In this document: one piece after another, positions 33,184 through 61,745 of the stretch | Position numbering within the stretch: position 1 is the first letter of the stretch | How the letters are laid out: every line of letters starts with the position of its first letter | NCBI GenBank assembly: GCA_019637335.1 | Contig: JAHBVV010000001.1 | Span: 627,440-691,439 of the forward strand | Source of the DNA: Candidatus Hydrogenedentota bacterium | GTDB taxonomy: Bacteria; Hydrogenedentota; Hydrogenedentia; Hydrogenedentales; JAEUWI01 | Direction: 5' to 3' | Length of the DNA: 64,000 bases | Translations under genes and position numbers: made by a program | Notes under the pieces: model-generated | The model's database searches: none | What the model was told of the DNA's origin: nothing | What the model saw: only the letters and a program-made list of their open reading frames with translations

Positions 33184-33303
33184 TGAGGCTTTAGGCTGGA
33201 GGGCAGTTGACAGTTGACAGTTGACAGTTGACAGCAGGGACAGCAGGGACAGCAGGGACAGCAGGGACAGCAGGGACGGCAGGGACGGCAGGGACGGCAG
33301 GGG
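33184..33303. repeat. Adjacent 7-mer and 9-mer tandem arrays
   Basis: Three TTAGGCT-like heptamers (33184-33203) lead into four perfect CAGTTGA heptamers (33204-33231). Eight 9-mers follow directly (33232-33303): five CAGCAGGGA, then two CGGCAGGGA and one variant. All units abut in phase. The next 90 bases to the HD gene are GT-rich with decayed units. Confidence 0.92.
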
Positions 33304-33393: not shown

Positions 33394-33972
33394 TTATCTG
33401 GGCCGTTGTTTGCCGGCGCGCTGGCAGATGGTGTCGAAGAGGCTGGAGACGGCTGGGATGCCGTAGTCGGCGAAGTTTTTGGGGTTGTTCCAGAATTCGT
33501 CGAGGCATCCGCGGCGTTCTCGTTCGTAGCACCAGACCTTGATCATCATCTGGGCCTTGTCGAGGCCGCGGAGGAGGCGGGCTTCGGGGGTTTCGGCGGT
33601 GTCGAATTCGGCGTGGAGGGCGGCGAGATCGCCGGGGAGCCCGTCGAGCAAGTGGTCGGTGATGGCCTGCTCGGCCTTTTGTTTGGCTTCCTTGAGGTAG
33701 GCGTCGGCGTAGGGCATGGGGATGTCCATGAGGCGGGCTTCGGCGAGGTCGTGCACGAGGGCCATGGCGAGGAGGCGGTCGCGGTTGTATTCTCCGGGGA
33801 ATTGCTCGACGAAGAGGAGCGCGAGGAGCGCGACGAAGTGGCTGTGGGCGGCGACGGACTCGGGGTCGGCGACGCCGCGCAGGAGGTAGCCGGCGCGGGG
33901 GACGCGATCGAGGGGATGGATTGTCTGGAACAGCTCGAGGATTTGGTCGTTGAAACTGGTGGGGCTGGTCAC
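33394..33972 (-). CDS. HD-domain 5'-nucleotidase-like protein (YfbR/HDDC2 type)
   Basis: A 192-residue cytoplasmic HD-superfamily phosphohydrolase. The conserved metal ligands are visible: His43/His45 (SVAAHSHF), His74-Asp75 (ALVHDLAEA) with Glu78, and Asp138 (GLDKAQ). RGVADPESVAAHS is the typical substrate-side motif of deoxynucleoside-5'-monophosphatases such as YfbR. It probably hydrolyses (deoxy)nucleoside monophosphates; a different phosphate ester is possible. The start is GTG at 33972, overlapping the stop of the upstream AAA+ gene by four bases (GTGA), so the two proteins are made together. Confidence 0.85.
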   Translation of the reverse strand: MTSPTSFNDQILELFQTIHPLDRVPRAGYLLRGVADPESVAAHSHFVALLALLFVEQFPGEYNRDRLLAMALVHDLAEARLMDIPMPYADAYLKEAKQKAEQAITDHLLDGLPGDLAALHAEFDTAETPEARLLRGLDKAQMMIKVWCYERERRGCLDEFWNNPKNFADYGIPAVSSLFDTICQRAGKQRPR

Positions 33973-35585
33973 GTGGGTCCCCCTTCTTCGGGCGCGGTCG
34001 CCGGGTCGTGGCGCGGATCGCTGTCTTCGATGGGGCCGACCAGGGTGGCTGTGTCCCGGGCGTCGTCACAGACAGGAATGTCGGTGTCTCCAGCGTCATC
34101 ACAGACAGGAGTGGCGGTGTCGCTGGCGGTGTCGCTGGCGTTGTCACCGGGAGTAGTGTCTGTGTCCCTGGCGCCATCACCGGCAGGGTTGTCTGCGTCG
34201 CCGAGCTGGAATTGAGGGGTGTGGCGTAGGGCGTCGAAGTCGTCGGGAAGCGCTTCGAAGTACTCGGTGTCGAAGAGGGAGGGTTGGTTGCGGTCTTCGC
34301 TTTCGCTGGCGCGCCCGTCACGGAGTTGTTGCAGGGCGTTCATCTGGGCGCGCATGTGGCCGATGGCGGCGCGGAGGGTCCGCGATGGGGCGTGTTCGTC
34401 GCCGAGGTCGGCGGCGGCGGCTTCGGCCTGGCCCAGTGCGGCGTCGAGGGCGCCGAGGAGGTGTTCGACCTCGCCGGCCTGTACGTTTGCGGTGGCGACC
34501 TGGCTGGCGGCGGCGTAGCGGAGGGCGTCCATCTCGGCGGTCTGGATGGCGAGCATCTTGCGGGTTTTTTCGAGCTCGAACTCGATGCGCTTCATGCGGT
34601 CGCGGGTGGCGGCGAGCGCGGCGCGGGCGTTTTCGCTGTCGCGGGCCGATTCGGCGGCGGCGTCGCGGAGTGCGCCGGCGGTTTCGGGGCTGTCGAGGCT
34701 TTCGGCGAGGGCGGCGGTTCCGGCGCGCAGGGCCTCGTCGCGATCGGCCTGCGCCGCGCGGAGGCTTTCCAGGCGTTCGAGGGCTTCGGCGGCGCGGGCG
34801 TCGGCCTGTTCGCGGGCCTTTTCGGCGGTGGCGAGGCGGCCGCGCAGTCCGGCGTTCTCCTCCTGCTCGAACCGGGCCTCGCTGAGGGCGATCTGTGCGC
34901 GGGCCTGCTGCGCCATGGCGAAGTCGGCCTCTTCCTGGAGCTGGCGTACGCGCCCCTCCATGGCGACGGTTTCCCGGGCGAGGTCTTCGGCGGAGGCGAG
35001 GGCCACGGCGAGCTTCTCGCTGATAGCGTCGCGTTCCTGTTCAAGCCCGAAGATAGTCTGCTCGAGGCCTTGAATCCGCTCGAAAACGGCGATGGGATCC
35101 TCGCCGGCGGGGGCGCGCGGTTCGAGGACGATGCATCGGGAGCGGGCGAATCGCGCGCGGAGCGGCCCGCTGAGTTCGCGCAGGCGGTTTGGGTGCACGT
35201 TGCTGGCGATGAGCACGGGGTGCTGGTATTTGAGGAAGGTCTCGACGAGGGCCTCGAGGCGCGCGGCCTCCTTTTCGAAGCCCTCGAGATTGTCGACGAG
35301 TAACACGGCGCGGCGGCCAAGGAGCGGGCGTGGGTCATCGGCGAGGGCGCGCACTTTTTCAGGGAATTCCTGAGGCGTGATGAGCGCGAGTCCGGCGGGA
35401 ATGGCGCTGAGGCGGACCTGCTTCGCGATGGACCAGAGGAGGTGGCTTTTTCCGGCGCTTTCCGGCCCGAGCAGGAGCGCGAGCGAGGGGCCCATATCCT
35501 CCATGAGGGCGATGCGCCGACAGTAGTCGAAGGCCTCGCGGTTACCGGCGGTGACTTCGAAGGTTTCGAAGGTTCTCCCCTTCAT
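33969..35585 (-). CDS. DnaA/Hda-like AAA+ protein fused to a long coiled coil, with a clamp-binding-like motif
   Basis: A 538-residue protein. Residues 1-185 resemble DnaA domain III/Hda: TFETFEVTAGN at the N-terminus, Walker A GPESAGKS (40-47), Walker B LLVDN (Asp98; the second acidic residue of DnaA is Asn99 here), a sensor segment LIASNVHP and PLRARF (Arg145, an arginine-finger position). The DnaA DNA-binding domain IV is absent; about 195-415 is instead a continuous Ala/Glu/Arg-rich coiled coil. Residues 434-438 read QPSLF, like the beta-clamp-binding pentapeptide QLSLF. The tail (about 455-538) is acidic and repetitive (PVCDDAGDTD twice). The start at 35585 fits the DnaA alignment; an open frame back to 35759 has no family features. 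The downstream HD gene is coupled. The role is unknown; regulation of initiation or chromosome handling is an inference. Confidence 0.8.
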   Translation of the reverse strand: MKGRTFETFEVTAGNREAFDYCRRIALMEDMGPSLALLLGPESAGKSHLLWSIAKQVRLSAIPAGLALITPQEFPEKVRALADDPRPLLGRRAVLLVDNLEGFEKEAARLEALVETFLKYQHPVLIASNVHPNRLRELSGPLRARFARSRCIVLEPRAPAGEDPIAVFERIQGLEQTIFGLEQERDAISEKLAVALASAEDLARETVAMEGRVRQLQEEADFAMAQQARAQIALSEARFEQEENAGLRGRLATAEKAREQADARAAEALERLESLRAAQADRDEALRAGTAALAESLDSPETAGALRDAAAESARDSENARAALAATRDRMKRIEFELEKTRKMLAIQTAEMDALRYAAASQVATANVQAGEVEHLLGALDAALGQAEAAAADLGDEHAPSRTLRAAIGHMRAQMNALQQLRDGRASESEDRNQPSLFDTEYFEALPDDFDALRHTPQFQLGDADNPAGDGARDTDTTPGDNASDTASDTATPVCDDAGDTDIPVCDDARDTATLVGPIEDSDPRHDPATAPEEGGPT

Positions 35586-35623
35586 GCGGGGATCTCGCGG
35601 GGTGTTTTGTGGTTCATGGGCGT

Positions 35624-38301: not shown

Positions 38302-38434
38302 CAGTTGACAGTTGACAGTTGACAGTTGGCGGTTGGCAGTTGACAGTTGACAGTTGACAGTTGACAGTTGACAGTTGACAGTTGACAGTTGGCGGATGGC
38401 GGTTGGCGGTTGGCGGTTGACGGTTGACAGTTGG
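38302..38434. repeat. CAGTTGA heptamer array (19 units)
   Basis: Nineteen in-phase heptamers over 133 bases. Most read CAGTTGA; variants CAGTTGG, CGGTTGG, CGGTTGA and CGGATGG cluster at the ends and after unit 3. The perfect run from 38337 to 38385 has seven identical units. Confidence 0.96.
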
Positions 38435-48254: not shown

Positions 48255-48310
48255 GCTGTTTGGTTTTTTTGGGGGGCTTCCGGGGATGTGGGGCGGGCTC
48301 TCGGGGGCGA

Positions 48311-48685
48311 CTCGGGCCGGGACGTACCCCCGCGTTGTGGTGGCTGGCCATTGGGCCGGGTGATCCGGTTTGACGCGGGGTTTGCTTCGTTGTACGAGGC
48401 TTCTTTGCGGCGGTACGTCCCTTGGTTTGGGGCGACTCGGGCCGGGACATACCCCCGCGTTGTGGCGATTGGCCATTGGATCGGGGGATCCGGTTGGACG
48501 CGGGGTTTGCTTTGTTGTACGAGGCTTCTTTGCGGCGGTACGTCCCTTGGTTTGGGGCGACTCGGGCCGGGACGTACCCCCGCGTTGTGGTGGCTGGCCA
48601 TTGGGCCGGGGATCGGTTGGACGCGGGGTTTGCTTTGTTGTGTGTCGCTTCTTTGCGGCGGTACGTCCCTTGGGGGCGGTGTCGG
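48311..48685. repeat. 125-bp tandem repeat, three copies
   Basis: The phrase ctcgggccgggac starts units at 48311, 48436 and 48561, an exact 125-base period. The units are over 90 percent alike by eye. Each junction holds an inverted repeat, GGTACGTCCC and GGGACGTACC (22-base loop), so the element can form a long hairpin. The third copy decays after about 48680. It fills most of the gap between the PP2C and secDF genes, which run convergently. Confidence 0.93.
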
Positions 48686-61229: not shown

Positions 61230-61270
61230 CGGGGGGGCCGCCTGCGCTCCGAGTGGTCCGCGATCCTGGT

Positions 61271-61745
61271 GCGCCTTTTGGCGCTGAACACAGGCGGGAC
61301 GCCCGCCTCCGGCGTGTCGTGGACCTGTGCCACTTTCTTTTCGAGGTGGCTTTGGTGGGTGGCAGGGGAACTTTTGGAGGTGGGCTCACGTTGCCGCAGA
61401 CACGAATGTCCGCGATCCTCGCGCCTTCGGCGCGATGGACAGCCGGGACGGCTATCCTACATTTGCGCCTTTTGGCGCTGAACACAGGCGGGACGCCCGC
61501 CTCCGGCGTGTCGTGGACCTGTGCCACTTTCTTTTCGAGGTGGCTTTGGTGGGGGGCAGGGGAACTTTTGGAGGTGGGCTCACGTTGCCGCAGACACGAA
61601 TGTCCGCGATCCTCGCGCCTTCGGCGCGATGGACAGCCGGGACGGCTATCCTACATTTGCGCCTTTCGGCGCTGAACACAGGCGGGACGCCCGCCTCCGG
61701 CGTGTCGTGGACCTGTGCCACTTTCTTTTCGAGGTGGTTTTGGTA
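61271..61745. repeat. 194-bp tandem repeat, 2.4 copies
   Basis: Units begin gcgcctttYggcgctgaaca at 61271, 61465 and 61659, an exact 194-base period. The two full copies differ at only a few positions; the third stops after about 87 bases. Each unit contains hairpins GGCGGGACGCCCGCC and GCGCCTTCGGCGC and ends tggacagccgggacggctat, a phrase also found at 32922. The bases before it (61230-61270) are plain spacer. Confidence 0.95.

Follow-up and report, generated by a model that had tools for sequence, protein, structure and literature searches.

The window analysed here is a stretch of 64,000 nucleotides from a Candidatus Hydrogenedentota genome. A gene encoding a 538-amino-acid protein, made up of a DnaA-fold AAA+ core and a coiled coil, occupies positions 33969-35585 of its minus strand, as supported by its reading frame and translation and by orthologues in the phylum; coding on the plus strand was ruled out, the 538-aa frame lying on the minus strand. 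The first methionine (M1, position 35585) is taken as the right start because the complete orthologues align from a start of the MKxxSFxTF type. An 11-codon frame (MNHKTPREIPA, 35582-35617, minus strand) ends at this point, its stop overlapping the start codon of the AAA+ gene (ATGA). Downstream, also on the minus strand, lies a gene for an HD_3/YfbR-like phosphohydrolase (33394-33972; PF13023, 98.4 bits; PF12917, 48.6 bits). Its start overlaps the stop of the AAA+ gene by four bases (GTGA), and inspection of its product revealed the H, HD and D residues of the HD signature. The window also contains apparently intergenic arrays of the heptamer CAGTTGA (33204-33234 and 38302-38433) and tandem repeats with units of 125 bases (48304-48673) and 194 bases (61270-61744).

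The AAA+ core corresponds to residues 1-153 (35127-35585, minus strand). Its best Pfam match is Bac_DnaA (PF00308), which covers residues 4-147 with 33.8 bits (4.8e-8; gathering cut-off, 23 bits) and is also found in all of the 19 family members scored. A family profile of 165 positions matches DnaA structures from the PDB at 2e-16. When the AlphaFold2 model of residues 1-189 (mean pLDDT 93.5) was compared with the PDB using Foldseek, the best match was DnaA (1l8q, 2.3e-10), followed by Hda (5x06, 3.7e-8; 3bos, 7e-8), and ranks 1-18 were all DnaA or Hda. The DnaA domain III-like AAA+ module that had been proposed from the letters alone is thus borne out by both the Pfam match and the structural comparison. 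The features shared with DnaA domain III are the common AAA+ fold, the TFxxF start, the Walker A motif (GKTHLL), the Walker B aspartate and the Pro132 region. Nevertheless, the family protein lacks the lid, sensor 2, domain I and domain IV of DnaA, its arginine finger is mostly lost, and the stretch linking Walker A to Walker B, which holds an initiator-specific motif in DnaA, is shorter. In the models, the fifth strand of the core comprises residues 150-153 and the coiled-coil helix already starts at residue 164; the AAA+ lid with sensor 2 is therefore missing in addition to domain IV, and no lid bearing a sensor 2 arginine was found in the 538-aa protein. Likewise, no domain IV helix-turn-helix is seen in the full-length model, in which residues 164-538 are coiled coil and disorder. 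The sequence-only reading was right about the loss of the DNA-binding domain, but the lid and sensor 2 have gone too.

The nucleotide site includes a Walker A motif (GPESAGKS, residues 40-47; 35445-35468, minus strand), a Walker B Asp98-Asn99 (35289-35294, minus strand) and Arg145 (35151-35153, minus strand), which occupies the arginine-finger position of DnaA Arg285. The same reading had located all of these correctly, as well as the QPSLF motif discussed below. K46, H48 and D98 are invariant across 54 family members, and nucleotide binding is therefore under selection. Position 99 can be Q, E, D, N, G or H, varying by clade. The presence of Asp-Asn in Walker B, from which weak hydrolysis had been suspected, is confirmed, but E. 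coli Hda carries Asp-Asn as well (IDNI). The Arg145 site has an arginine in only 5 of the 54 members, four of them from the source genus; nearly every other member carries L, I, M or F there. Since the three residues are invariant, position 99 is variable and the arginine finger is mostly lost, the family resembles a switch operated by ATP binding more than an AAA+ with a conserved finger-donating or self-assembling role.

The core is followed by a predicted coiled coil at residues 164-428 (34302-35096, minus strand), supported by the alignments and by the full-length model, where it is divided into helices 164-296, 302-393 and 399-428; residues 429-538 are of low confidence. A coiled coil of about 220 residues had been expected; it is present, but its length is about 265 residues. 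Near its end, the alignments show a signature (AEMDALRxxAAxQVAxANxQAGE) common to several families of the phylum. The first part of the disordered tail carries QPSLF (residues 434-438; 34272-34286, minus strand), a motif of the clamp-binding type located at a site with pLDDT <50. The tail-coding part of the gene contains a minisatellite with a unit of 33 bases (34112-34199), and the extra-long acidic tail of the protein is not present in its closest relatives. One genome (G007) encodes a protein of 1576 residues (L149) plus a normal-sized member with QPILF.

The motif was counted in the last 130 residues of each member, and these tails were shuffled in 2000 trials. QxxLF is found in 8 of the 15 members of a branch made up of families f1, f2, f3, f8, f9 and f10, where 0.26 would be expected on average and more than 3 were never obtained, and in none of the 39 members outside this branch, a contrast that is inflated by the fact that the branch was picked after the motif had been seen. 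If E is allowed at the first position, the count within the branch rises to 11 of 15 (0.72 expected). Two rows of the branch (L146 and L191) have long branches and fall outside it in the core tree, where L191 groups with f11. Selection on the motif is supported by these figures, although they are not a probability, since the members are related. The stronger argument is that QPSLF, QPPLF, QGVLF, QPILF, QIPLF and QGTLF occupy the same alignment position, with Q, L and F kept while their flanks drift. The conservation expected of QPSLF was found in part: QxxLF recurs in several related families, but in the source genus it is canonical in one of four members, the other forms being EMSLF, EPSLF and, in one species, the broken EQAHF, and most of the phylum lacks it. 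On sequence grounds, the clamp-type motif is thus real but branch-specific, and its absence from most of the phylum makes clamp binding unlikely as the ancestral job of the family.

The DnaE of the same genome carries QFSLF. Its DnaN is identical to the E. coli beta clamp at L155, T172, G174, P242, V247, V360 and M362 and has a methionine instead of L177, all positions which we take to belong to the beta cleft. QxxLF is the general clamp motif, whose first position can vary, some DnaE proteins retaining only positions 4 and 5 (PMC12309361). Another locus (L229, G000:C23) contains a 409-aa frame with QRQTDLF beside a second DnaE-like gene, and may correspond to a clamp client of the ImuB type. 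Different conserved motifs occur in the tails of families f4 (LHHVEEL) and f5 (PLxDLxPLE; L151, L157, L152, L168, L176 and L199 for both families), several of which end in DPSI or DHSI, and a segment of the LxxVVxxAF type is shared by families f1, f2, f10 and f11.

The family is present in 59 of the 68 Candidatus Hydrogenedentota genomes, which makes the observation more than chance; nine genomes gave no match at the family level, among them all four of f7 and two with a completeness of only 63 and 66 percent. The family cores group in a single clade (support 100/100), apart from the Hydrogenedentota DnaA, a pilus-linked protein that joins an MshEN domain to a DnaA core, and E. coli Hda. Their assignment to DnaA/Hda is therefore valid at the level of the superfamily, but within it they make up their own clade. 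The tests of sister groups gave AU p = 0.588 for Hda, represented by the one sequence of E. coli, and AU p = 0.57 for the pilus-linked group; neither was rejected. The family was apparently inherited vertically within Hydrogenedentota; outside the phylum, the remaining matches examined among those listed in the contig search were ordinary DnaA. The literature searches retrieved no paper on Hydrogenedentota together with DnaA and nothing relevant on MshEN together with DnaA; the family is previously undescribed. Location beside dnaA was rejected as a general rule; in one genome (G058), dnaA lies some 3 kb upstream, with other genes in between. A defence system was also discarded: the PADLOC match (mad8) is marginal (0.0012, through the P-loop), the HD protein has no match, and the near-universal presence of the family in the phylum argues against such a role.

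Most of what is known about DnaA-fold ATPases concerns initiators and the proteins that inactivate them. Among the latter, E. coli Hda is a short DnaA homologue that uses a clamp-binding peptide to inactivate DnaA on the sliding clamp. The family protein has an Hda-like parts list, as Hda is also a DnaA relative without DNA-binding domain that bears a clamp-type motif and, in E. coli, the Asp-Asn Walker B, but it fails the defining tests of Hda. The Hda model (TIGR03420) scores 30.1 bits against a cut-off of 194.8, and the DnaA model (TIGR00362) 28.4 bits, both far under their equivalog cut-offs. In Hda, the motif is N-terminal and both a lid and an arginine finger are present; by contrast, the motif of the family protein is C-terminal, follows the coiled coil and is found in one branch only, and no clamp-binding motif precedes the core in the 538-aa protein. 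The label "Hda-like", if understood as membership, is thus not supported. Moreover, the near restriction of the arginine finger to the source genus makes an Hda-style inactivation of DnaA unlikely as the ancestral job.

Two other clamp-associated proteins offer closer comparisons. CrfC, from E. coli, is a GTPase that self-associates, carries a clamp motif and holds sister forks together (PMC6374313). The likeness lies in the combination of an NTPase, a clamp-binding motif and self-association, which for the family protein would have to come from the predicted coiled coil; nevertheless, CrfC is a dynamin-like GTPase from a different P-loop family and its motif (QLALP) is N-terminal. YabA, from Bacillus subtilis, is a helical oligomer that acts as a hub linking DnaN and DnaA (PMC4705661), but it is small, has a Zn domain and an atypical clamp-binding site and is not an ATPase. 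The best reading of these comparisons would be that the logic of the family protein is closer to CrfC or YabA than to the catalytic Hda.

Starting from what was observed, that is, the fold, the missing lid and domain IV, the predicted helices, the conservation of the motif within its branch and the gene linkage described below, the scenario that we favor, with a probability of roughly 0.4, is that of an ATP-switched coiled-coil scaffold that is clamp-tethered in one branch. ATP binding would switch the core between partner-binding states and the coiled coil would form oligomers. In the branch of the source genome, we infer that the QxxLF of the tail would tether the oligomer to DnaN sliding clamps. 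Any role in replication would stem from this tether, which would recruit the protein to replication forks or to freshly replicated DNA. There, its core could either keep sister forks joined or sequester DnaA. The absence of the motif from most of the phylum and its canonical form in just one of the four members of the genus speak against this scenario, and both the linkage to the HD gene and the existence of relatives fused to MshEN point to other possible roles.

One of these roles, rather unlikely in our opinion, is that the AAA+ protein regulates or localises the neighboring YfbR-like 5'-deoxynucleotidase and thereby adjusts dNMP/dNTP levels, perhaps near forks. In 38 of the 55 loci examined, spanning most families, the next gene on the same strand is HD_3/YfbR-like, and both genes often overlap or lie within 20 bases of each other; among the 17 loci without it, 5 reach the end of their contig within 300 bases. 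The matches to the HD_3 and YfbR-like models and the HD-signature residues noted above are consistent with this enzyme assignment. Nevertheless, the HD gene is present without the AAA+ gene in eight genomes (G012, G015, G020, G025, G028, G030, G041 and G061), the AAA+ protein without an HD match in seven, and the genes are apart in much of f5. This pattern of co-occurrence rules out an obligate pair, and the linkage may simply be co-transcription.

A similarly doubtful possibility is that the protein works outside replication, as a scaffold or signalling hub in the cytoplasm, for instance at the cell pole or the pilus base, in which case QxxLF would bind another partner. This would agree with the existence of paralogues in f3 and f5 (L192, L193 and L194) that combine the same core and coiled coil with a C-terminal MshEN-like domain, recognized by eye, with the MshEN-DnaA architecture of the pilus-linked protein, whose group the AU test did not reject as sister, and with the different conserved tail motifs of other clades. 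Yet QxxLF matches the clamp motif of the DnaE from the same genome, the protein itself does not have an MshEN domain, and no pilus genes adjoin the AAA+ gene at the source locus.

The least probable alternative is a RIDA-like regulator in which the clamp-docked core would stimulate the hydrolysis of DnaA-bound ATP as Hda does, on a convergent scaffold: the DnaA/Hda fold with its clamp-type motif, the arginine at the finger position, the Walker B shared with E. coli Hda, the AU test, which did not reject the single Hda sequence as sister, and the source genome's three Bac_DnaA proteins (a complete DnaA, the pilus-linked one and the family protein), none of which is another Hda candidate, would favor it, but the finger is replaced in nearly all members, the lid is missing, the motif comes after some 265 helical residues and the Hda score is far too low, and this explanation could hold at most for the source genus.

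In a family present in nearly the whole phylum, the replacement of the DNA-binding half of DnaA by a coiled coil, while the ATP-binding half was kept, would show that this fold can be reused as a scaffold. Replication control in this phylum, which is largely uncultured and has no obvious Hda, would also become directly accessible through the family, and the gain and loss of the clamp motif within one phylum is a natural experiment on the recruitment of clients to the sliding clamp. A much more speculative extension, which we consider improbable, is that the whole phylum possesses a further DnaA-fold ATPase which is not an initiator, serves as a coiled-coil organiser of forks or chromosomes, is tied to the clamp through its C-terminal motif in one branch, and works with the co-transcribed deoxynucleotidase to couple the state of the forks to the nucleotide supply.

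The pilus-linked DnaA relative constitutes an observation in its own right. At locus L197 (G000:C3:219000-226000), an ORF starting around position 1311 gives a 775-aa frame made up of an MshEN domain and a complete Bac_DnaA core, with PilB- and PilT-like genes immediately downstream. Many other Hydrogenedentota genomes contain a second, longer DnaA-type frame of this sort, and a DnaA-fold ATPase within a pilus gene cluster looks worth a separate study.
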